DNA of 38,851 nucleotides, taken from a virus. Both the position numbers and the translations under genes were made by a program. How positions within the stretch are numbered: position 1 is the stretch's first letter; every line of letters begins with the position of its first letter. Below are positions 8,175 to 38,851 of the stretch, one piece after another. The stretch spans positions 1 through 38,851 of the IMG/VR virus record IMGVR_UViG_3300046511_000319, one strand, 5' to 3'. Below the pieces are notes generated by a model. The model did not search any database and had not been told where the DNA came from. It saw only the letters and a list, made by a program, of their open reading frames with translations.

Positions 8175-8245
8175 GCCCCCGTGCGGATGGAACCGCTCCT
8201 GGTTTCGTAGCCAAGGCCTTCCGGGTTCGAATCCCGGCGGGGGCG
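8175..8245 (+). tRNA. tRNA-like gene with irregular anticodon arm
   Basis: A 7-bp acceptor stem (GCCCCCG at 8175-8181, CGGGGGC at 8238-8244), a 4-bp D stem (GCGG/CCGC) with a GG-containing loop, and a perfect T arm (CCGGG-TTCGAAT-CCCGG, 8221-8237) are clear. The anticodon arm is abnormal: CCTGG and CCAAGG (8198-8216) pair only with a bulged A and leave an 8-base loop TTTCGTAG. The anticodon could read CGT (Thr) or TCG (Arg), but neither gives a regular 5-bp stem and 7-base loop. CCA is not encoded. It may be a decaying tRNA, an unusual functional tRNA, or a piece of host tRNA taken in by recombination. Confidence 0.5.
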
Positions 8246-8267
8246 CACCGCTCCCGAGAACGAAACA

Positions 8268-8446: not shown

Positions 8447-8537
8447 ATCTCCCCGATGGAGAAGGAATCAAGCCGAACGCGCGTTCGGAATCGGCACCAG
8501 GAGGTTCCTGCCCGCCGGGGCCAGCCTCGTCTCTGCT

Positions 8538-8789
8538 TCACGCATCGCCAGGTGTGGGGATGAGCGCGTGGTTCAAGGAGCCGCAGCTCCAACACCGAAT
8601 CACGAGGTCGACGTGGTTGGTCGGGTTGAGCCCGGAGATGAGTAGCAGCGAGCACGTCCCGCACACGTAATCGGGGCCGTCGAAGTTGCCTAGGATCGCA
8701 GGGGTCGTTCCTTCCGTGGGCGTGAGCACGGCAACTTCCTTGGTATCGACCGAGCTAAGGACGCGCAGTCGGAAGGTCGCTCGCTTCAT
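8538..8789 (-). CDS. Small zinc-ribbon protein
   Basis: An 83-residue protein. The ATG at 8789 overlaps the stop of the gene before it (ATGA). Two Cys-x2-Cys pairs, 'VCGTCSLL' at about residue 41-48 and 'RCWSCGSLN' at about 64-72, are spaced as in a zinc ribbon. The N-terminal 35 residues form beta strands. It is the last gene of a leftward cassette that encodes membrane and secreted proteins. The function is unknown. Confidence 0.6.
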   Translation of the reverse strand: MKRATFRLRVLSSVDTKEVAVLTPTEGTTPAILGNFDGPDYVCGTCSLLLISGLNPTNHVDLVIRCWSCGSLNHALIPTPGDA

Positions 8790-9040
8790 TCGAGCGGCAC
8801 CAGGCGCACCGTCGTCACGCCGCCCACCGTCTCGAACACGCTGACCGCCCACTCCCCCGCGTAGGCATCCTCGAGCAGCCGGCGCAGGCCGCCGTGCGAG
8901 CTCGCGATCGAGGCGATGCCGCGGATCCGCTTCTCCATCGGGCTGAACGCCGGCAGGTCAGCGTCGACGAACACCTCGAGCTGTCGGGCACCGTCGTGAG
9001 GCCAGAGAATCGTGAAGGTGGGGCGACGCTCCGCGGTCAA
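8786..9040 (-). CDS. Hypothetical protein
   Basis: An 84-residue protein read from TTG 9040, which overlaps the stop of the secreted-protein gene (TTGA); the frame stays open further upstream, but that part would lie inside the neighbour. The sequence 'TILWPHDGARQLEVFVDA' and 'EWAVSVFETVGGVTTVRLVP' suggests a small alpha/beta domain. It overlaps the next gene by four bases. No family was recognised. Confidence 0.5.
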   Translation of the reverse strand: MTAERRPTFTILWPHDGARQLEVFVDADLPAFSPMEKRIRGIASIASSHGGLRRLLEDAYAGEWAVSVFETVGGVTTVRLVPLE

Positions 9041-10119
9041 GGCAGCCGCGTCAGCGTCACCGTCCAGCTGCAGGAGGTCGTCGCGCCGATGTAGAACTCC
9101 GACCCTTCCGGCACGTTGTTGAGGTAGTTGGTGCCGCGCTGTGTCCCATGCACTGAGGTCGACGCGACCGTGCCGTAGAAAGCCGCATCGTCGTTTTCGA
9201 CGTTGAGACCCGCGTAGCACCCCGCGCTCGTGTCGCTGTCGTCCGTTGCAGTCCAATCGGCTTCGTAGTCGCCTCCGACCAGGGCGAACTTCAACGACTC
9301 TCCGCTGCCGTATCCGCTCCGCGTCACGATGTCTGTGGCCAGTCCGCTCGGGACCGGGGTGGGCGCGGGAGTGATCGGAGCAACAGTCGGCAGCGCAAGG
9401 GTTGGGGTCGGCGTCGGCTCAGGGGACACAAGCGGCACCGGAACATTTGCCTGCCGGGCGATCAGCACGCTTGCTTTGCCGCCTGGAGTCTGCCCCATGC
9501 GGAAATAGAAGCCTCCGCTGGTCGTTGCCTTGTTGACCGTCAGAAAGTCATCCGGCGCCAGGTGATACGGATCCAAAGCGGACAACACTGCGTTGCGCGC
9601 CTCGTTGGGCAATCCCGTGGCGGCGCTCACGAGCGTATCCATCATCAGGACTTCGCCGAGAGCCTCTAGTCCGCCAGAGATGGAACCCAGACCAGGGGTC
9701 GGCGCGTAAAGCGATGCCATGGACACGAGCTTTCCATCTGGGGCGACAACCCCAAGCAATCCGTACGGCCGGTTGTCCCGACCGGTCCAGTAGTGCTCGG
9801 CAGTTTTGTAGCCACCCGAGGATGGGGTCAGCTTCCACTTACCACGCAGCTTCGTTGAGCCCGGCTCAGCATTCCATGCCAGGGTGAACTGATTGAGAGT
9901 CATGCCCAGGGTTCCAGACAGCGTCAAGTCGTCGGTGGTATCCGTGAGAGGCGTGAAGGCAACGGGCGCGGCCGAGGCTGTCGGGCTCGGCGATGGGGAA
10001 GAGGAAGGAGAGGGCGCGCCCTCTGGCGACGGTGAGGCACTCGGGCTCTGGGCGACGACGTTCGGGGTGGCGAATGCAAAAACCAACAGAACGGCGACGA
10101 GCCCCATGAACCGACGCAT
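9037..10119 (-). CDS. Secreted protein with Pro/Ser/Thr-rich linkers
   Basis: A 360-residue protein. ATG 10119 was chosen because GGGGAGAGG lies just upstream. Residues 1-23, two Arg then 'GLVAVLLVFAFA', form a signal peptide with likely cleavage after Val-Val-Ala. A low-complexity Ser-Pro linker follows (about 24-50), then a globular alpha/beta domain (about 52-230), a second Thr-Pro linker (about 233-265), and a beta-rich C-terminal domain with two Cys residues, possibly a disulphide. No catalytic motif is recognised. A secreted protein on the strand opposite the lytic genes is typical of a prophage-expressed accessory gene that changes the host surface. That role is inferred. Confidence 0.75.
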   Translation of the reverse strand: MRRFMGLVAVLLVFAFATPNVVAQSPSASPSPEGAPSPSSSPSPSPTASAAPVAFTPLTDTTDDLTLSGTLGMTLNQFTLAWNAEPGSTKLRGKWKLTPSSGGYKTAEHYWTGRDNRPYGLLGVVAPDGKLVSMASLYAPTPGLGSISGGLEALGEVLMMDTLVSAATGLPNEARNAVLSALDPYHLAPDDFLTVNKATTSGGFYFRMGQTPGGKASVLIARQANVPVPLVSPEPTPTPTLALPTVAPITPAPTPVPSGLATDIVTRSGYGSGESLKFALVGGDYEADWTATDDSDTSAGCYAGLNVENDDAAFYGTVASTSVHGTQRGTNYLNNVPEGSEFYIGATTSCSWTVTLTRLP

Positions 10120-10151
10120 CCCTCTCCCCTTCCCTTGCCTCGTTATCCAGC

Positions 10152-10182
10152 CCACTCGCCTTCGGGCGGGAGGGTCTTTTTC
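10152..10182 (+). terminator. Plus-strand terminator opposing the leftward cassette
   Basis: CCACTCGCC (10152-10160), a TTCG tetraloop and GGCGGGAGG (10165-10173) form a stem with one mismatch, followed by TCTTTTT. The U-run is on the plus strand although the genes here run leftward, so it would stop antisense read-through. It sits in the 64-bp gap between two cassette genes. Confidence 0.65.
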
Positions 10183-10183
10183 G

Positions 10184-10423
10184 TTACAGCCAACCCATGC
10201 TTTTGGCGATCGTCACCACGACCACCAGGACGATCAGCACGACGGCGAGGATGGCGAACGCAGTCCGGTACTGCGCCCAATCCTCCCCGCGCTCGTAGGT
10301 GACGATGAAGCCCTCGGGCGTCCATTCGGTGCGGCGGACGCGCCAGTCACGAATCTCCATGCTCCGGCGATCGACGTCGGCAATGCTGGTGTTGGGGTAG
10401 GCGCGGCGCTCGGTCTCGCTCAT
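10184..10423 (-). CDS. Small membrane protein, C-terminal anchor
   Basis: A 79-residue protein with a charged N-terminal domain ('RDWRVRRTEWTPEGFIVTYE') and one hydrophobic helix at about 55-76 ('FAILAVVLIVLVVVVTIA') close to the C-terminus. ATG 10423 is preferred over ATG 10432 because GAGGG lies about 10 bases before it and only 1 base before the other. It is likely a tail-anchored inner-membrane protein exposed to the cytoplasm. It belongs to the leftward accessory cassette and its function is unknown. Confidence 0.6.
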   Translation of the reverse strand: MSETERRAYPNTSIADVDRRSMEIRDWRVRRTEWTPEGFIVTYERGEDWAQYRTAFAILAVVLIVLVVVVTIAKSMGWL

Positions 10424-10457
10424 CTGGCGCATTCCCTCGTGACAGACAGCTCGGCGA

Positions 10458-10991
10458 TCAAGGCAAGGCTGGGCCGCTGGTTCTCGCGGAAAGCTCCGGA
10501 AGCAGCACCCCGGCCAGTCCTGCCACGCCGCCGGCGAACATCAGGAAGATCCCGATACCGACGCTCGTCGTCGCCCCGCCGGTCAGGCGGCTCTGACCGC
10601 CCGTCGCGTTGGCGATCTCGATGATCGATCCGATCACCGCCAGCGCCGCGACAATCAGCACGGGGAGGCGCACCTCCTGGCCCGCGATCAGGAGCAGGCC
10701 GAGCACCGCCAGCGCCACGCCGCCGAGAAGTACCACGTAAGCGTGAGCGTGGAAGACCCCGGTCATATCGGATACCTGCATCCCTGTGACCGTCAAGGTG
10801 ATTCCGCCCGATGTGAGCGATACCCAGGGCAGGAACGGTGCGACCGCGATCGCGGCTCCGCCAGCGGCCGTGAGCCAACCCCAACGCCGATCTTGAACGG
10901 CCCTGGTCGCGGCGATCGGCACGTGAGGCTGCTCTGGCTGCAGCTGGGGCGGTTCTGGTGGTTCACTCCAGACCCGTGGCGTATTACTCAA
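10458..10991 (-). CDS. Four-helix membrane protein
   Basis: A 177-residue protein starting at TTG 10991 with GGGGAG six bases upstream. A Pro/Gln-rich cytoplasmic N-terminus (1-35) leads into four membrane helices: about 38-58, 84-104, 109-128 and 142-164. The loop 'LPWVSLTSGGITLTVTG' after helix 1 is seen in small membrane proteins of high-GC bacteria of unknown function. It is the first gene of the leftward cassette. It may alter the host envelope or exclude other phages; nothing in the sequence decides this. Confidence 0.65.
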   Translation of the reverse strand: MSNTPRVWSEPPEPPQLQPEQPHVPIAATRAVQDRRWGWLTAAGGAAIAVAPFLPWVSLTSGGITLTVTGMQVSDMTGVFHAHAYVVLLGGVALAVLGLLLIAGQEVRLPVLIVAALAVIGSIIEIANATGGQSRLTGGATTSVGIGIFLMFAGGVAGLAGVLLPELSARTSGPALP

Positions 10992-11066: not shown

Positions 11067-11116
11067 GCAAATCTCTACGGCTCGTCAACTGGGCGAAAAC
11101 TTCGTCTCGCGGGCCC

Positions 11117-11146
11117 TTGCGCATAGAACGTTTGTTCTAGTACTTT
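11117..11146 (+). promoter_or_regulatory. SOS (LexA) box overlapping a rightward promoter
   Basis: TAGAAC-GTTT-GTTCTA at 11124-11139 is a perfect inverted repeat with the GAAC-N4-GTTC core of Gram-positive-type LexA sites. A possible promoter surrounds it: TTGCGC at 11117-11122, an 18-base spacer, and TACTTT at 11141-11146. LexA bound here would cover the spacer. Downstream on this strand is the small gene at 11200. The leftward cassette begins 130 bp away on the other side and could also be affected. The LexA match is strong; the promoter match is moderate. Confidence 0.65.
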
Positions 11147-11199
11147 CGACTGCCAGGTCGGAGATGCGCTCCGTCGGCGCCCACGGGAGAACGCCCGCA

Positions 11200-11406
11200 A
11201 TGGCCACACCTGTCACGGATCCGCGAGTGACTGAGGTCCTCGATCGCCTCGAGGCCGATTCGGCCCGAGCAATGGAGAGAGCGCTCCGCAGCCTCATGCG
11301 GCTCCCCGCTTCCGTGCGACGCGAGATAGACCCCTTCGCGCTCCTGCTTCAGCCGATGCCCGTAGCCGCTCGGCGATCGGACTCACCGGCGACTCAGGCG
11401 GGCTGA
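11200..11406 (+). CDS. Small protein, possible SOS-induced antirepressor
   Basis: A 68-residue protein; ATG 11200 follows GGGAGA by 9 bases, while an earlier in-frame ATG at 11164 has no room for a ribosome site. The N-terminal two thirds look like a real helical protein ('VTEVLDRLEADSARAMERAL'). The last 38 codons overlap the 3' end of the repressor gene on the other strand. It lies just after an SOS box and promoter. In coliphage 186, a LexA-controlled gene (tum) makes an antirepressor for a repressor that cannot cleave itself, and the arrangement here is similar. No homology to Tum is claimed; function is inferred from context only. Confidence 0.45.
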   Translation: MATPVTDPRVTEVLDRLEADSARAMERALRSLMRLPASVRREIDPFALLLQPMPVAARRSDSPATQAG

Positions 11407-11719
11407 TCAAGAGGTCGGCTGGCGCGTCAAGGATCTCCGCGAGCATCACCAGATCGAACGCTGAGGGAGTCGCCTTCCCAGTCTCCCATCGGGAGAGCGC
11501 TGCCTCGCTTCGGTTGACTCGCTCAGCCAGCGTCGCCTGGGTGATCCCACGAAGCGTTCTCAGCTGAACGATCGCGTCTCCGAGACGCTTCCGGTAGGTC
11601 GCCTCAGCGGTTGATGTGGACACGGGAACGAGTGTCAGACCGCGATGGCGTAGCGACCATGCCGCGAGTGATGCCAAGCTCTCGCTATCGCTTCTGACTT
11701 TCTGTCTTGACACCATCAC
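11294..11719 (-). CDS. HTH (XRE-type) repressor, probable lysogeny repressor
   Basis: A 141-residue protein. Residues about 47-105 form an XRE/Cro-CI-type HTH domain: 'LRTLRGITQATLAERVNRSE' followed by 'ALSRWETGKATPSAFDLVML'. The N-terminal 45 residues and the short C-terminus are unassigned. There is no S24 self-cleavage domain and the protein is too short for one. The GTG at 11719 lies 7 bases after a TACGCT -10 box, so the mRNA may be leaderless; ATG 11716 is an alternative start. It is divergent from a small HTH gene across overlapping promoters, the usual layout of a phage genetic switch. Confidence 0.8.
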   Translation of the reverse strand: MMVSRQKVRSDSESLASLAAWSLRHRGLTLVPVSTSTAEATYRKRLGDAIVQLRTLRGITQATLAERVNRSEAALSRWETGKATPSAFDLVMLAEILDAPADLLISPPESPVSPIAERLRASAEAGARRGLSRVARKRGAA

Positions 11720-11753
11720 AGCGTTAGCGTAACTTGCGGGCCGTGAACGTCAA
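11707..11753. promoter_or_regulatory. Overlapping divergent promoters of the genetic switch
   Basis: Rightward: TTGACA (11707-11712), 17 bp, TAACTT (11730-11735), then 7 bases to the GTG at 11743. Leftward: TTGACG (read on the minus strand at 11753-11748), 16 bp, TACGCT (11731-11726), then about 6 bases to the GTG at 11719. The two -10 boxes overlap, so the polymerases would exclude each other. GTTA-GCG-TAAC (11723-11733) is a small inverted repeat across both -10 boxes and may be part of an operator. Confidence 0.7.
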
Positions 11754-11955
11754 GAGCAGAGCCGAGCAGATCGTCGAAGCAAAGATCGGGGAGACGATCG
11801 AAGCGGCCATTCGCCGGATGTACCTGGAAGATGGGCTGACGCAGGCAGAGGTCGCCGTTCGACTCGGAGTCAGTCGCCAGTCAGTCGTCAACTGGATGGG
11901 CAAGTACGGCATCGAGAGCCGCCACACGCCGACGCCTTCCGAGGCCGTCGCGTGA
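11743..11955 (+). CDS. Small HTH protein (Cro-like position), first early gene
   Basis: A 70-residue protein with an HTH at about 31-55, 'LTQAEVAVRLGVSRQSVVNW'. GTG 11743 was chosen because it sits where transcription should begin, 7 bases after TAACTT, with no room for a ribosome site. A TTG in frame at 11734 lies inside the -10 box and is unlikely. It is the first gene of the rightward early operon and is divergent from the repressor, so by position it is the Cro-like or early regulator. Confidence 0.75.
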   Translation: MNVKSRAEQIVEAKIGETIEAAIRRMYLEDGLTQAEVAVRLGVSRQSVVNWMGKYGIESRHTPTPSEAVA

Positions 11956-12125
11956 CCCGCACCCGCCGCGTCCATCGCCTCCAGGTCGAGCCGCACCCTG
12001 AGCCGACTCAGCTCGTACTCGGCCTTCCGGTCGGCTTCGTCCTGCTCGGCACACGCTCCCGCGCCAAGGGGAAATACGTTCCGGGTGGCTCGTTCACCGA
12101 GCAACGGAAGCGGGTGGCAGCGTGA
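11952..12125 (+). CDS. Small hypothetical early protein
   Basis: A 57-residue protein starting at GTG in a GTGA overlap with the HTH gene, and ending in a GTGA overlap with the next gene. It is basic, with 'QLVLGLPVGFVLLGTRSRAK' in the middle. The family is not recognised; tight coupling on both sides supports it being translated. Confidence 0.55.
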   Translation: MTRTRRVHRLQVEPHPEPTQLVLGLPVGFVLLGTRSRAKGKYVPGGSFTEQRKRVAA

Positions 12126-12334
12126 GCACCATGCTGCCGTCAGTCGCCAGCATCTCCCGCGAGCGGCGAATCCGCGCAATCAGGCGGGTGCTCGAGGAGC
12201 ACGGGCCGCTCTTCTCCGCCGACCAGATGCGCATCGTGGGCTGCAACTGTGGCTTCACGGTCCCGCGCGCGGTCATGTTCGGCACGGCTGCGCACCGCGA
12301 CCATCTCGCAGCGCGACTGGTGGACGTGGCGTGA
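12122..12334 (+). CDS. Small hypothetical early protein
   Basis: A 70-residue protein starting at GTG 12122 (GTGA overlap). The N-terminal half is helical and basic ('RERRIRAIRRVLEEHGPLFS'), followed by a Cys-Asn-Cys motif and 'AAHRDHLAARLVDVA'. It resembles small phage proteins that often occur in actinophage early operons, of unknown function. Confidence 0.55.
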   Translation: MSTMLPSVASISRERRIRAIRRVLEEHGPLFSADQMRIVGCNCGFTVPRAVMFGTAAHRDHLAARLVDVA

Positions 12335-12480
12335 TCCTGATCATCCTCGCCGGCTGCGCGTTCCTCCTGATGGTCCTCGCGACCGCCTTGCTGGAGGCAT
12401 GGGCCCGCCATCGGAAGTGGCCTGGCTACGACGACCGGGACGTGCGGTGGGAGCGGCGATGGCCTGGGAGGCCGTGGTGA
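12331..12480 (+). CDS. Small single-pass membrane protein
   Basis: A 49-residue protein from GTG 12331, GTGA-coupled to the gene before. One membrane helix (about 2-24, 'LIILAGCAFLLMVLATALLE') is followed by a basic, Trp-rich cytoplasmic tail. The function is unknown. Confidence 0.5.
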   Translation: MILIILAGCAFLLMVLATALLEAWARHRKWPGYDDRDVRWERRWPGRPW

Positions 12481-12641
12481 GCGTGACCTGGCGTGACGAG
12501 CGGAGGCGCTCCATCGACCTCTACGGCGTCGTGCGCGGTGCGATCGCTCTCCTGATCCTCGGCGTCGTCCTGCTGGTCATCGCTGTACCGACGTACATCG
12601 CGATGCAGGTCGCCTTGACATTCGTTGGGGTGAATCCGTGA
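12477..12641 (+). CDS. Small single-pass membrane protein
   Basis: A 54-residue protein from GTG 12477, overlapping the previous stop. A charged N-terminus (1-18) is followed by one hydrophobic helix (about 20-45, 'GAIALLILGVVLLVIAVPTY'). It is the second of three consecutive small membrane ORFs in the early operon. The function is unknown. Confidence 0.5.
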   Translation: MSVTWRDERRRSIDLYGVVRGAIALLILGVVLLVIAVPTYIAMQVALTFVGVNP

Positions 12642-12838
12642 GCGCACTCCGCATTGCCGACCATGCGATCACCGACGAGGAACGGGCCGACCTCCTGACG
12701 CTGCTGGACGAACCTGCAGATCGGCACCACTCGAACACCTGCGACTGCCACTGCGATTGCTATGCGACCTCGATTGGTGGCGGCATCTGCCGTCAGTGCA
12801 AGGCCGGCGATCACGTATGGCCCGAGGCGACGTCGTGA
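12638..12838 (+). CDS. Small Cys/His-rich protein, probable zinc binding
   Basis: A 66-residue protein from GTG 12638 (GTGA overlap). After an acidic helix it has 'TCDCHCDCYATS' and 'GICRQCKAGDHVW', that is six Cys and nearby His that could bind one or two zinc ions. The function is unknown. Confidence 0.5.
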   Translation: MSALRIADHAITDEERADLLTLLDEPADRHHSNTCDCHCDCYATSIGGGICRQCKAGDHVWPEATS

Positions 12839-12993
12839 AGCTGCGTCTCGCCCTCGTCGCTATGGCAGCCGCTGGATGGCTGGTGGCTGGCGTGCTGTTC
12901 TGGGTCCTGCCGACAGAAGACGAGTGGGATGCCGAATACGAGCGCGGCTACGACGCCGGTGAGGACTCCCATGCGATGAGGGCGGGCGCATGA
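12835..12993 (+). CDS. Small membrane or exported protein
   Basis: A 52-residue protein from GTG 12835 (GTGA overlap). Residues 3-27 ('LRLALVAMAAAGWLVAGVLF') are a membrane anchor or uncleaved signal, followed by an acidic tail with 'YERGYDAGEDSH', a tail type seen in other small phage membrane proteins. The function is unknown. Confidence 0.5.
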   Translation: MKLRLALVAMAAAGWLVAGVLFWVLPTEDEWDAEYERGYDAGEDSHAMRAGA

Positions 12994-18887: not shown

Positions 18888-19727
18888 GTGACCGTCCCGC
18901 TTTCACCGACCAGCCCGCGTCGCGATGCCGCGCGCCGTTTCGGTGTGGAGCTGCGCAAGGCGATGGTCAAGCGCCAGGTCGGCCAGCATCGTGTCGCGGA
19001 GTTCGCCCATGTCGCGAGCTCTGCCGTTGCCAACTGGAAGGCCGGCGGCAACCTCCCGACACTCGCCACTGCGATCCGCCTTGCGGAGACGCTCGACTGG
19101 CCGAAGCTCGCCGAGATAGCCCGCGACGCCCGCCGCTCCGAATGCCAGCAGTGCCATCGCACGTTCCTCAACGAGGGCGGCCAGCTCAAGCTGTTCTGCT
19201 CGGCTGAATGCCGCGAGGAGGCGGCGCGACGGCGCGCGGGCAAGCTCGCCGGGCGTCGTGACGCGATCGCGCTCCTCCAGGGCGAGATGCTCCGCGTGGG
19301 CCCCGCCCGCAAGCAGTCGATCGGCAAGGCCCTAACGCTGATCGAGGCGGACAGGTCCGTCGAGCGGGTCGATCGCCTGGCCATGCACCGCGACGCCGTC
19401 GCGTCGATGTGCTCGACGTGCGAGCCGCTCGGTTACTGCCGGACCGCCGACTGCCCGCTCCGATCCGTGTCGCCATTGCCCCTGCTCATCACGGACAAGG
19501 AGGGCGAGCCGGTCTCGAAGGCCCCGGGTGCGTGGGCGCCGGAGAACCGCGAACGGATGCAGGAGGCGATCCAGGCCGCCAACGCCGAACGTTGGTCACG
19601 CCCGGGAGAGCGCGAACGAGCCTCAGCCCAGACGTCGCGCATGTGGGACGAGAACCGCGAGGAGCTCACCCAGAAGGTCCGCGCCGGCGTCAAGCGACGT
19701 GACGCGCGGCGGCGGAGCGCGGCGTGA
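18888..19727 (+). CDS. HTH and zinc-finger regulatory protein
   Basis: A 279-residue protein from GTG 18888. Residues about 18-75 form an HTH similar to XRE proteins ('VAEFAHVASSAVANWKAGGN', 'LATAIRLAETLDW'). At about 84-105 'CQQCHRTF' plus 'FCSAECREEAARRR' is a treble-clef-like zinc knuckle, and a second Cys cluster 'CSTCEPLGYCRTADCPL' follows at about 175. The C-terminus is helical and very basic, with Glu-Asn-Arg repeats. It probably binds DNA and may control late genes or integrase expression. No single named family covers the whole protein. Confidence 0.6.
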   Translation: MTVPLSPTSPRRDAARRFGVELRKAMVKRQVGQHRVAEFAHVASSAVANWKAGGNLPTLATAIRLAETLDWPKLAEIARDARRSECQQCHRTFLNEGGQLKLFCSAECREEAARRRAGKLAGRRDAIALLQGEMLRVGPARKQSIGKALTLIEADRSVERVDRLAMHRDAVASMCSTCEPLGYCRTADCPLRSVSPLPLLITDKEGEPVSKAPGAWAPENRERMQEAIQAANAERWSRPGERERASAQTSRMWDENREELTQKVRAGVKRRDARRRSAA

Positions 19728-19888
19728 AGATCAATCGCGTCCGCATGGGTCGACCCGAAGCGGCCTTCTGTGGCTGCGCTCTATGCGAGGCGTACCTCAA
19801 GGCCATCGTCGCGGCCGAGTCGAACCGGCAACGGGCGCGCGGTAGGCTGCGAGTCGTGAAGGGCGGCAAGGGCAGAGCAGCTGCGTGA
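19724..19888 (+). CDS. Small basic protein upstream of integrase
   Basis: A 54-residue protein, GTGA-coupled on both sides. It has 'FCGCALCEAYLKAIVAAES' and a very basic C-terminus. Its size, charge and place just before the integrase would suit an excisionase-like accessory factor, but nothing specific supports that. Confidence 0.4.
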   Translation: MKINRVRMGRPEAAFCGCALCEAYLKAIVAAESNRQRARGRLRVVKGGKGRAAA

Positions 19889-21402
19889 CCAGGCTCCCGC
19901 GCACCGTCGACGAGCTCCGCGGCCTTCGTGCCGCGCGCTGGATCCGTGAATCCACGCAGGGCCAGCACGATCACTTCGGGCCCGACAGCCAGCTGCGCCA
20001 GCAGGACGACGCGATCGCACGGTACGGACTCGTCGACACCGGCCTGTCGTGGTCGGTCGCGCACTCGGGCTGGAAGAGCCTCGATCGACACCCGGCATGG
20101 GCGGAGATGCGCACCGCCATCGGCCGCCAGTACGACGTTCTGCTGGTTGGCTACGTCAGCCGCTGGTCGCGGAATCTCAAGCTCTCGATGAATGCCCGCG
20201 ATGAGTTCCATGCGGCGGGCGGGGCGCTGCTGTTCTGCGATGAGCGAATCCTCTCGTCCGATGAGGAGCAATGGGACCAGTTCGTCCGCGAGGCGCATGA
20301 GGCCGAGTCGTACAGTCGGAAGCTCTCACGCCGCATCGCGCAGGGCTACGAGGCGAAGTTCCGACGCCACGCCGACCAGGCCGGGACCGCGCCGCTCGGC
20401 TTCCACCGAGAGGCACCGGAGTTCAGGCTGGCGATCGACCCCGCCACGATCGGTCGCGCGATCCGTGCCTTCCAGCGGTATGCCACCGGCCGGGTCAGCC
20501 TGCGTGAGCTCGCCGTGGAGTCGGATATCGCCGAAGCCGCGCTGCGGTCGATGCTGGCGAACCCGGTCTACAACGGCTGGATGCGGCGCCACCGCCGGCA
20601 GCACGACGAGCAGCGGCTTGCGGCTCCGTGGCGCGATCACCCACCCGTCTCGGACGAGCTCTGGGCGCGCGTACAGGAGGTCCGCTCCGAGCGCTACCAC
20701 GGCGGCGGGAGACCGACACCCGTCGTCACGCACCTGCTCTCCGGTCGCGTGTTCTGTGCCGGGTGCGGCGCCCGGATCCGCGCGGAGCCACGTCGATACC
20801 GCCACTTCGAGCCCTGTGAGGCGTGGTCGAAGTCGACGCGCACCGCCAGGGCGATCGAGGAGCCGATCGCCGTGCAGCTGCAGAAGGTCCGCTCGGACGC
20901 CGCGATGATGATCAGCCTGCGGAAGATGGCCACGGCTCCGCGGCCGGATTCGATCGCGCTCCGGAAGCGACAGCTCGAGCGCGAGCTCGCCGACCTGGCA
21001 TCCCGTCACGCCCGGCGTGCGCTCTCGACCGACGCCTACCTCGCCGAGCACGGCCGGATCACCGGCCTCATCGACTCGCTAACGGCGTCAGGCAGCGAAC
21101 CGACCGTGGATCCGGACGTGGCGATCGCCTACCTGCGCGCGCTGCCGAAGCTGTGGCGCCAGACAGATGACGCTGGTCGCCGCGCGATTGCCCTGGGCAC
21201 TTATGAGCGCGTGTGGATCACATCGGACGGGATCGTCGACGTCGAGCTCACGGCTGACGCGATCCGTCATGGAATGCTCGCGGCGCTCCCCGAAAAGGTG
21301 TTGCTGGCGCGCCCGGCAGGAGCCGGGATCACTTCCAACATCATCCGGGTGCGCATCCGCGGCCAGCGTGAGGCACGCGCGGCGATCCGGCGGACCGCGT
21401 GA
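19885..21402 (+). CDS. Large serine recombinase (phage integrase)
   Basis: A 505-residue protein from GTG 19885. The catalytic domain has 'RWIRESTQGQ' with nucleophile Ser about residue 23, 'VSRWSRNLK' (equivalent to the Arg-rich active-site motif) near 95, and the long alpha-E helix region. The recombinase domain ('PLGFHRE...AIRAFQRYATGRVS') spans about 165-270. A zinc beta-ribbon 'LLSGRVFCAGCGARIRAE' lies at about 285-320, then a coiled-coil segment (about 350-390). These enzymes join attP to attB without supercoiling or host factors. The gene is translationally coupled to the early operon, not isolated beside an attachment site. Confidence 0.9.
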   Translation: MTRLPRTVDELRGLRAARWIRESTQGQHDHFGPDSQLRQQDDAIARYGLVDTGLSWSVAHSGWKSLDRHPAWAEMRTAIGRQYDVLLVGYVSRWSRNLKLSMNARDEFHAAGGALLFCDERILSSDEEQWDQFVREAHEAESYSRKLSRRIAQGYEAKFRRHADQAGTAPLGFHREAPEFRLAIDPATIGRAIRAFQRYATGRVSLRELAVESDIAEAALRSMLANPVYNGWMRRHRRQHDEQRLAAPWRDHPPVSDELWARVQEVRSERYHGGGRPTPVVTHLLSGRVFCAGCGARIRAEPRRYRHFEPCEAWSKSTRTARAIEEPIAVQLQKVRSDAAMMISLRKMATAPRPDSIALRKRQLERELADLASRHARRALSTDAYLAEHGRITGLIDSLTASGSEPTVDPDVAIAYLRALPKLWRQTDDAGRRAIALGTYERVWITSDGIVDVELTADAIRHGMLAALPEKVLLARPAGAGITSNIIRVRIRGQREARAAIRRTA

Positions 21403-26081: not shown

Positions 26082-27685
26082 TCGACGCATTGCCAGCCCG
26101 GAATGGGCGCCCTTTTTCTAGTAGACGCCACACTGTTGCTGACCCTGACTCCGAAATAAAGCGAATCCCGCAGATCCTGGTCAAGCGACCCCGAACACGC
26201 CGGACTGCGCCCGGGCCGCGATGGGAGACGCCGACACCGCCCGGTGTGGCCGGCTCCTACGGCAAACAGGTCATGGCCTGGTCCGAACGGAAGCTCCGAC
26301 GGTGCTTCGGTCCCTGGCAGTCGTACGCGACGCGACAGATGCTGCGTCACGACGCGAACGGCGAGCTGATCGCCCGGATCATGCTCGAGTCGACCGGCCG
26401 GCAGAACGGCAAGACGGTCATCGTCCAAGGACTGTGGGGCTGGCTGCTCGACGAGGGCCGCGAGCTCGCGCCGTTCGCCGGGTGGACCGAGATGCTGGCG
26501 GCAGCTCACGACGCCGGCCAGGCGCGGAAGATGTACAACCGGGTCCGGGCGGACATCGAGGGGTCGCCAGCCCTCATGGCCCGGATCAAGACGACTCAAT
26601 GGGCCGGCATCACCGCCGGGCCCATCGAGTTCAACACGGTGACCGGACAGCCCGGATCCGCCCGAGGTTCGACGGCTGGTGCGATCGCCTGGGACGAGAT
26701 GCTCACCCAGCGCGACTGGGACATGTGGGAAGCGCTCGGGCCGACCCAGTCGGCTCAGCGGTCGCCGATCATGCTGCTCACTTCAACCGCGGGGCACTCC
26801 GACAGCGTCGTGCTGCGCGCCTTCTACGACCGCCTCGTGCGCATGGCCAGCGGTGACGAGAAACCGGACCCCAAGTTCTACGGCGCCTGGTGGCAGTCGG
26901 ACCACCTCGAGGTCGGCTACGACGCCAACGGCGAGCGCCGCCCGCTGAATCGTGAAGACTGGATCCAGATCGGCAAGGCCAACCCCGGCCTCGGTGACGG
27001 CAGGCTGACCCGCGACGCGATCGTCCTCGACCACGCCATCCTCCCGCGCGAGTCCTGGTTCCGCGAACGGCTTAATCACTTCGTCGACGTCGTCGCCGAC
27101 GGCGCGCTGCCTCCGGGCGCATGGGCTGGCAACCGCGTCAGCGATGGTCCGCTCGACGGACTGACCGGTCCGTATGCACTCGGCGTGGACGTCCAACCGG
27201 GCTGGGAGCGGGCCACGATCTGCGTCGCCGGGATCCGATCCGACAACCGGGTTGGCGTGGAGGTGTATCGTGATCTGCGCAGGTCAGAGGGCGAGCCGGT
27301 AACGGCAGCCCGCATCATCGCCGATTGCGTCGGCTTTCCCGAGATCGATCAGGTGCTCGCAATCGCCTTCGATCAGGTTTCGGGTGCTGCACCTGCATTC
27401 CTGCGTCACCACGAAGAGACGGGCTTGCCCTGGGACGGGCTGAAGCCGGCCGCGATGGTGGCCGCCTGCATGGACGTCACCGAGCAGATCCTTGCCGCCA
27501 CTCTTGCCGTCAACGACCCCCTGCTTGATGCGCAGATCGCGCTGGTCGCGAAGCGACCCGTTGGCCAGGACGGCGCATTCCGCTTCTCACGCCAGGCAAG
27601 CACCGGCCCGATTGACGCCGTGATGGCGATGACGCTCGCCGCTCACTCCATCAGCGAGTTCGGCACTGGGCCGCTGGTCGGATGA
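26072..27685 (+). CDS. Terminase large subunit
   Basis: A 537-residue protein. ATG 26072 is preferred to an upstream frame inside the HNH gene; the first 60 residues are weakly conserved, so a later start is possible. 'STGRQNGKTVIV' (about 106-117) is the Walker A, 'GAIAWDEM' (about 203-210) the Walker B with catalytic Glu, and 'LLTSTAG' the coupling motif. The C-terminal nuclease has 'GVDVQPGWERAT' (about 371), 'AFDQVSG' and 'PIDAVMAMTLA'. It drives DNA into the prohead and cuts it. Bases 26110-26165 are notably AT-rich compared with the surroundings. Confidence 0.9.
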   Translation: MVLIDALPARNGRPFSSRRHTVADPDSEIKRIPQILVKRPRTRRTAPGPRWETPTPPGVAGSYGKQVMAWSERKLRRCFGPWQSYATRQMLRHDANGELIARIMLESTGRQNGKTVIVQGLWGWLLDEGRELAPFAGWTEMLAAAHDAGQARKMYNRVRADIEGSPALMARIKTTQWAGITAGPIEFNTVTGQPGSARGSTAGAIAWDEMLTQRDWDMWEALGPTQSAQRSPIMLLTSTAGHSDSVVLRAFYDRLVRMASGDEKPDPKFYGAWWQSDHLEVGYDANGERRPLNREDWIQIGKANPGLGDGRLTRDAIVLDHAILPRESWFRERLNHFVDVVADGALPPGAWAGNRVSDGPLDGLTGPYALGVDVQPGWERATICVAGIRSDNRVGVEVYRDLRRSEGEPVTAARIIADCVGFPEIDQVLAIAFDQVSGAAPAFLRHHEETGLPWDGLKPAAMVAACMDVTEQILAATLAVNDPLLDAQIALVAKRPVGQDGAFRFSRQASTGPIDAVMAMTLAAHSISEFGTGPLVG

Positions 27686-37255: not shown

Positions 37256-38851
37256 TCCAGCGCACGTTCGACTGCACGAAGGACACCCGCCTGGTCAATA
37301 ACTCGGGCACCTTCTCGGGCAACGGCCAGGGCCCGTCGCTGTCGGTCGGGTTGATCGCCGGGAACCAGACCCGGTCGGAACTCGAGATGCAGCTGGACTT
37401 CACCGGCGCCCTGTCCGTGTCACAGGCGCTCCTGCGGATGATGGCGTCGACAAAGTGCGGGGCCTTCGGGGGCAACGTCATCTTCGTGGTCGAGGAGGCC
37501 GCGACCGGATTCCAGGAGGGCCAGTACGCGGGCACCTGCGACAGCTCGACCAGTAACGCCGAGAAGTGGCCCGGCCAGACGACCGTGACGACGAACAGGG
37601 CCGTCTATAACCACACCCCCGCCGATGGCGACCTGGTCTCGGTCGACATAACCGCAATGGTCGAGGCGGCACGGGCGGCGGGGAAGAGCAAGATCCGCCT
37701 GGTGCTCTTCGCGTCGGACGGCACCGGCGCGCACGACGAGTCGAACGCCGTCCGGTTCGTCGGCCTCTGGTCGAAACAGGGCGGGAACTACAAGCCGCGC
37801 ATCGAGGCGGTGCTGGACGACAGCTACGCCCCTGACGCGCCATCCGACATCTCCCCGGCAACAACGAACTACCAGGCGCAGGGGCAGTCGGCCACCCGCG
37901 TGGATGCGTCATTCATCGTCACCGGGCGCTTCACGGAGCAGGCCGTGGCGGGCAAGCCCGCGCCATCGCTCAACGCTTCCCAGTTCCAGCTCTACACCCA
38001 GTACGCCGCGGACGCCGGCGGCAACACGGTCACCGGCGGGACGAAGCTCATCGACACGGTGAAGGCTAACTACCCGCCAGGGTCGCTGGACATCGCACAC
38101 CCGGTCACGATCACGTCGCCGGTCGGTACCGAGGTCCGCGGTCGTATTCGGGTCCAGGGCAACAACGGCAAGTGGAGCCCCTGGACGCTCATCGCGGCGA
38201 TGCGGCTCATCCCCAACAACCGCCCGACCGCACCCACGAACCTCTCGAGTGACCCCGAGTGGACGACCTACAGCGGGCACCACAACGACCCCGACGCCAA
38301 CTCGAGCATGAGCGGCGTCGAGACCCAGGTCGTGATCGAGAACGCCGCGGGCTTCGAGATGGTCCAGAACACCACGTCCTACCACCCCGAGCTCGTACCG
38401 CCCGACTCGGCGACCGGGAAGTATTCGACCCTGAACGGGACGGGTATGGACCCGGTCGGCGGCGGCACCAACTTCATCCTCGGTGCATCGGGTCGAACGC
38501 TGGCGACCGGGGAACGTCCCCAGCGACGCCACCGCACGGTCGACCAGTTCGGGGCCGTGGGTCTGTGGTCCGACTGGATCTCGGGCGTGGTCGGGTCGGG
38601 TACCCTGCCGACCGTCATCCCCGACCCTGGTACGAAACAGGACGACCTGACGCCGTTGCTCGGTGCGAGCTACAGCGAGGCGATCACCGGGATGCTCGTC
38701 GAGGCGTACGCGACGAACGACCTGACGCAGCTGCTCTGGCAGCCCGCCGAGAAGGTGGTCGCATCGGTGACGTCGGCGACCCGCGAGTACGGCACGAACA
38801 GCGCCGGCGTGCCGCTCCAGTGGGGCCAGCCGCTCTGGATACGGGCCGCGG
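37252..38851 (+). CDS. Minor tail protein, N-terminal part (runs off right edge)
   Basis: A protein starting at GTG 37252 in a GTGA overlap with the tape measure stop; 533 codons lie in the window and the frame is open at the edge. Residues about 1-185 resemble a DNRLRE-type or carbohydrate-binding-like beta sandwich: 'DTRLVNNSG', 'QALLRMM', 'SVDITAMVEAARAAGKSKIR' and a closing 'YKPRIEAVL' strand. After a Pro-rich linker come further beta domains with 'RPTAPTNLS' Fn3-like joints. The gene continues at position 579 of the window on the circle. It occupies the distal tail position, between tape measure and tip genes. Confidence 0.75.
   Translation, partial: MIQRTFDCTKDTRLVNNSGTFSGNGQGPSLSVGLIAGNQTRSELEMQLDFTGALSVSQALLRMMASTKCGAFGGNVIFVVEEAATGFQEGQYAGTCDSSTSNAEKWPGQTTVTTNRAVYNHTPADGDLVSVDITAMVEAARAAGKSKIRLVLFASDGTGAHDESNAVRFVGLWSKQGGNYKPRIEAVLDDSYAPDAPSDISPATTNYQAQGQSATRVDASFIVTGRFTEQAVAGKPAPSLNASQFQLYTQYAADAGGNTVTGGTKLIDTVKANYPPGSLDIAHPVTITSPVGTEVRGRIRVQGNNGKWSPWTLIAAMRLIPNNRPTAPTNLSSDPEWTTYSGHHNDPDANSSMSGVETQVVIENAAGFEMVQNTTSYHPELVPPDSATGKYSTLNGTGMDPVGGGTNFILGASGRTLATGERPQRRHRTVDQFGAVGLWSDWISGVVGSGTLPTVIPDPGTKQDDLTPLLGASYSEAITGMLVEAYATNDLTQLLWQPAEKVVASVTSATREYGTNSAGVPLQWGQPLWIRAA

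Follow-up and report, generated by a model that had tools for sequence, protein, structure and literature searches.

In the Gifsy prophages, in coliphage 186 and in phage N15, a non-cleavable repressor is paired with an antirepressor that is controlled by LexA (PMC3121763). A similar arrangement may exist in IMGVR_UViG_3300046511_000319, an IMG/VR record of a soil virus of bacteria (38,851 bases, 68% G+C) that was analysed over its full length, hereafter the window. A candidate SOS (LexA) box precedes a 68-codon gene (11200-11406, plus strand), and this gene runs head-on into the gene of a repressor that has a helix-turn-helix (HTH) domain only. We assign a probability of about 0.5 to the reading that this module is a damage-responsive induction cassette of a temperate phage, with the small gene encoding a LexA-controlled antirepressor. 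It would probably be a compact version of the strategy known from the Salmonella and E. coli phages; mechanisms of this kind are known already, but the sequence of the protein is new, and the layout, with the trigger overlapping the gene of its target, differs from that of Gifsy. A preliminary description of the locus had proposed an induction module with no named family. The proposal of a module is sustained in so far as the small frame is conserved, the SOS-like box travels along with it, and the repressor lacks a self-cleavage domain. The absence of a named family holds for the protein, for which Pfam, PHROG and NCBIfam gave no match and the PDB no significant one; the mechanism, by contrast, has clear precedents.

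The comparison with these precedents reveals likenesses in principle and differences in arrangement. As with GftA and GfoA of the Salmonella Gifsy prophages (Lemire et al. 2011, PMC3121763), a small protein under LexA control is predicted to be paired with a short, non-cleavable repressor of the DicA type. GftA and GfoA are about the same size as the small protein, whereas Tum of coliphage 186, with 146 amino acids, is nearly twice as large (PMC3121763). The Gifsy antirepressor gene lies in a dinI operon that is spatially separated from the immunity region (PMC3121763), while the gene described here adjoins, converges on and overlaps the repressor gene. Tum is LexA-controlled, binds the repressor and blocks its operator binding, as may be the case here, but one half of Tum is DinI-like. 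The Tum gene of 186 is not known to overlap the repressor gene. AntC of phage N15 likewise belongs to the SOS regulon and acts on a non-cleavable repressor, but its arrangement is different. Database searches, made without direct pairwise comparisons, detected no sequence similarity of the small protein to GftA/GfoA or Tum and placed it in none of the GftA/GfoA, Tum and AntC families. In the TF-smORF (transcription factor-small open reading frame) modules of Vibrio phages, a small protein without homologues that is encoded beside a regulator also inactivates the phage repressor; these modules, however, are driven by a phage transcription factor independently of DNA damage, and their small gene is divergent from the activator gene and not convergent with the repressor gene (Silpe et al. 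2023, PMC10432266). In case of the CTX phage and its satellite RS1, the antirepressor RstC acts on RstR, to which the repressor of the window has its best NCBIfam similarity (below cut-off), but RstC is encoded by the satellite and dispensable for induction, and LexA acts on rstR itself.

The repressor gene (11294-11719, minus strand) encodes up to 141 amino acids (140 from the ATG at 11716) and its product is 94% identical in IMGVR_UViG_3300046809_000255, the sole other phage found to have the module and referred to below as the sister phage. The HTH domain (Pfam HTH_31/HTH_3) occupies residues 46-103 of 141, and the 38 residues that follow leave no room for an S24 domain; neither Pfam nor NCBIfam gave a peptidase or S24 match, in agreement with what had been described before. 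As the protein has only an HTH domain, it should not be inducible by RecA-stimulated cleavage, and an antirepressor is favoured because known LexA-controlled antirepressors go together with repressors that lack a self-cleavage domain (PMC3121763). The best NCBIfam similarity, 36.6 bits to the RstR family (NF041951), stays below the curated cut-off of 80 and does not make the protein a member of that family; DicA is also listed, again below the cut-off. Both similarities have literature links to antirepression and in this respect support the antirepressor reading, as RstR is the target of RstC, and as DicA is a member of the non-cleavable GfoR/GtgR group, in which small antirepressors controlled by LexA inactivate the Gifsy representatives (PMC3121763).

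The assignment as lysogeny repressor is supported by a layout that resembles an immunity region. Between the repressor gene and a divergent gene for a second small HTH protein (11743-11955, plus strand, 97% identical in the sister phage), which is the first gene of the rightward operon and holds a Cro/CII-like position, there are two overlapping, face-to-face promoter candidates (11707-11753). The putative rightward lytic promoter TTGACA-N17-TAACTT (11707-11735, plus strand) is identical in the sister phage, the putative repressor promoter is TTGACG-N16-TACGCT (11726-11753, minus strand), and both hexamer pairs are kept. Both apparently give leaderless messages, starting with the repressor ATG at 11716 and the GTG of the HTH gene at 11743, and an inverted repeat that overlaps both -10 regions, GTTAGCGTAAC (11723-11733), is a candidate operator. 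A repressor start near 11623-11629 was dropped once the leaderless promoter for ATG 11716 had been seen.

The small frame is 90% identical in the sister phage, with a ratio of nonsynonymous to synonymous substitution rates (dN/dS) of 0.22 overall. In the 93 bases outside the repressor overlap, the substitutions at codon positions 1, 2 and 3 number 1, 1 and 8, corresponding to a dN/dS of 0.09, and since 8 of these 10 substitutions fall on third positions (binomial p 0.003), the frame is very probably a real gene. Its conservation, which the preliminary description had demanded of related phages, is thus borne out, and the pattern supports purifying selection in the two phages, from which production of the protein may be inferred. 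A possible ribosome-binding site, GGGAG (11185-11189, plus strand; GGGG in the sister phage), is located 10 bases ahead of the ATG. A longer start at ATG 11164, which would give 80 amino acids, was rejected, as the sister phage has ACG here and the two genomes differ by a 1-base indel between this position and the ATG at 11200; a minus-strand frame (11085-11297) that has its third positions in common with the small gene was likewise rejected, as the sister phage does not keep it open. In the predicted fold, a long helix spans residues 8-33 and is accompanied by two short helices and a disordered tail; the mean predicted local distance difference test (pLDDT) score is 76. Pfam, PHROGs, NCBIfam, phage records and genome contigs contain no match to the protein, IMG/VR has no relative except the sister phage, and the matches to the PDB (E 4.8) and to a plasmid (E 0.8) are at chance level; these searches catch mainly close relatives, and distant ones may exist.

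A perfect GAAC-N4-GTTC palindrome on a promoter-like pair reading into the small gene had been noted before, and the closer analysis confirms it. The GAAC-GTTT-GTTC core (11126-11137) is part of a perfect 16-bp palindrome, TAGAAC-GTTT-GTTCTA (11124-11139, plus strand), which occupies the 18-bp spacer between a putative -35 hexamer, TTGCGC (11117-11122, plus strand), and a putative -10 hexamer of the TANNNT type, TACTTT (11141-11146, plus strand). In the sister phage, the box and the GTAC following it are unchanged, and the TTGCG of the -35 region (TTGCGA), the spacing of 18 bp, the TANNNT type of the -10 region (TACCTT), the start codon and the frame are kept as well. The box is contained in an invariant 20-base run of the leader, which by itself is only suggestive. 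The homology to the sister phage (81% over 11112-12993) starts at 11112, five bases upstream of the -35 hexamer, while about 2 kb to the left, which form an accessory cassette read leftward, are unrelated, its larger part (from about 9040 up to the breakpoint at 11112) being replaced by other genes in the sister phage. As the homology starts just before the -35 hexamer and the box is kept, the box belongs to the small gene rather than to the leftward cassette. When viral contigs were searched for the box together with GTAC, 19 matches resulted, 18 of them in unrelated contexts of low or medium G+C content and the remaining one in the sister phage. With a matrix built from 17 published LexA sites of Streptomyces venezuelae (PMC9380542), which may not represent the motif of the host, the box reaches 14.5 bits, within the 3.1 to 16.3 bits spanned by the known sites, and comes third among 77,676 14-mers. 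The top two (1112 and 3265) are in the tail-gene region, and the box is the best-scoring site outside the tail genes; its reverse strand scores just 9.5, because the published LexA sites are asymmetric.

The window contains a second perfect GAACN4GTTC palindrome, CCGAACGCGCGTTCGG at 8473-8488, with the CG flanks that the first one lacks, located about 50 bases beyond the 3' end of a small minus-strand frame and adjoining a long hairpin. It was rejected as a supporting site, as it is not placed as a promoter element; although identical in the sister phage, its conservation is uninformative because the surrounding block is 97% identical.

A plausible sequence of events can be derived from this arrangement. 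In the lysogen, host LexA bound to the box at 11124-11139, between the -35 and -10 hexamers, would keep the small gene off, and the HTH-only repressor would keep the rightward early promoter shut. Upon DNA damage, LexA would be cleaved and the 68-residue protein made, which would then bind the repressor and remove it from its operators, so that the early operon fires. The box, the promoter layout, the coding nature of the small frame, the HTH-only repressor and the linkage of box and gene in two phages are seen directly. We infer that LexA is the binder, that damage is the inducer and that the repressor is the target. Control of the small gene by LexA is likely, and more so than the complete chain.

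Several observations weigh against this interpretation. The conservation rests on two genomes, i.e. on only one relative. Both hexamers are weak, each matching the consensus at 3 of 6 positions, and a scan with the sigma-70 consensus found no promoter. Judged by number alone the motif is not significant and such a palindrome is expected by chance: the window has two GAACN4GTTC sites where 0.58 are expected, and 13 of 100 shuffles attain this number as well. The box stands out from chance because it lies in the promoter spacer and because the only relative has conserved it completely. A real weakness of the LexA-box reading is the lack of CG flanks, as the box carries A/T beside the core where actinobacterial LexA boxes carry C/G (published motif tCGAAC-N4-GNNCGa, PMC9380542), and the LexA motif of the host may differ from the matrix used. 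Furthermore, the searches done link the small protein to no antirepressor (with E values allowed up to 1, the phage collection gave no match), and its gene position is not a defining sign, given that the Gifsy antirepressors are encoded far from their repressor gene.

What alternatives exist for a LexA-controlled antirepressor? The small gene could be controlled by LexA and yet serve another role upon damage, for example in the host cell cycle, DNA repair, integrase direction or superinfection, with the phage being induced otherwise or not being SOS-inducible at all. SOS-controlled accessory genes are frequent in prophages, the small protein has no relatives of known role, and its gene is flanked by the leftward cassette, which is accessory and for the most part exchanged in the sister phage. 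However, the recombination breakpoint leaves the small gene on the side of the immunity region, where it travels with the repressor and the early HTH gene and not with the accessory cassette. Another role is conceivable though rather unlikely. A slightly less likely explanation is that the palindrome serves as an operator to which the repressor of the phage itself or a different host regulator binds, and that the small gene is an early or lysogeny-linked gene under phage control. This would agree with the missing CG flanks, and palindromes of such shape are not rare, as the window has 18 perfect 6+6 repeats with a 4-base spacer. Yet no second copy of the motif occurs near the repressor promoters, even when 3 mismatches are allowed (the only other sites, at 26865 and 36534, are both in the structural gene region), and the inverted repeat at these promoters, GTTAGCGTAAC, is a different one.

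The convergent overlap (11294-11406) comprises 113 bp, as described previously, and no terminator was found between the two genes, so that the transcript itself might act, either pairing as antisense RNA or colliding with transcription of the repressor gene, with the small protein being secondary. The substitution pattern argues for selection at the protein level, RNA over the 3' end of the repressor message alone would leave the existing repressor protein, and the leader is not unusually structured, its folding being no better than that of shuffles; as the sole mode of action, the transcript is thus very improbable. Antisense action is possible, but it finds no specific support and is unnecessary; gene packing could account for the overlap. 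Also improbable, if less so, is the combined scenario in which a single SOS-inducible, convergent transcript encodes an antirepressor of a new family and at the same time cuts repressor synthesis by antisense pairing or collision. Within the overlap, 5 substitutions relative to the sister phage are at third positions of the repressor frame and 4 at those of the small gene, which differs from the remaining repressor gene with 21 of 23 substitutions at its own third positions (Fisher p 0.016). This spread would fit two coding frames that share a relaxed end, but a relaxed repressor tail alone also fits.

Many temperate phages have short repressors that cannot cut themselves, and damage sensing is known for few well-studied examples. 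If the antirepressor reading is correct, the layout in this high-G+C soil phage would extend antirepression to another, possibly Gram-positive, host group, and an SOS box in a promoter spacer, followed by a small gene head-on to a repressor gene, would be a simple search pattern for hidden triggers. No equivalent module was seen in the distant relatives of the repressor (L004-L019, Thermobifida phage P1312, Paenibacillus phage Neutron). Two isolate-derived viral records of this group (L017 and L019) carry a GAACN4GTTC motif 152 bases upstream of the sequence that matches the repressor; an HTH protein of distant relationship is encoded there, and independent LexA control is possible. A phage with an 82% identical terminase was dismissed as a relative of the module, as what it shares is limited to the genes for packaging and the head and to a single tail protein, and as it lacks a match to HTH_3.

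The window encodes terminase, portal, capsid and tail proteins, RecE-like and RusA-like recombination proteins and a GH25 endolysin, which identifies a tailed phage by gene content; the serine integrase (19885-21402) is the reason for calling it temperate. The distant matches of the terminase come mostly from phages of Microbacterium, Arthrobacter, Mycobacterium and Gordonia (the best ones listed have <30% identity), which hints at an actinobacterial host without proof; a terminase profile search of genome contigs for the host gave no match. Chloroflexi (Dehalococcoides) share the GAACN4GTTC core, and such a host group would fit too. As the ends of the record (1-578 and 38268-38851) are homologous, with a 578-base overlap at 84% identity, the genome is probably circular and assembled from two strains, and the final ~580 bases may be those of another variant.

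Some neighbouring features deserve mention. The products of the leftward cassette adjoining the module (8786-10991) are probably secreted or located in the membrane. A 279-residue protein with an N-terminal HTH (Pfam E 0.0019, below the cut-off), encoded at 18888-19727 immediately ahead of the serine integrase gene, is a possible second regulator. At 8175-8246, ARAGORN calls a tRNA-like element with an unusual four-base anticodon (tcgt), which has no Rfam match at the gathering score; it is also present in the sister phage and is perhaps a decayed tRNA or the remnant of an integration site.
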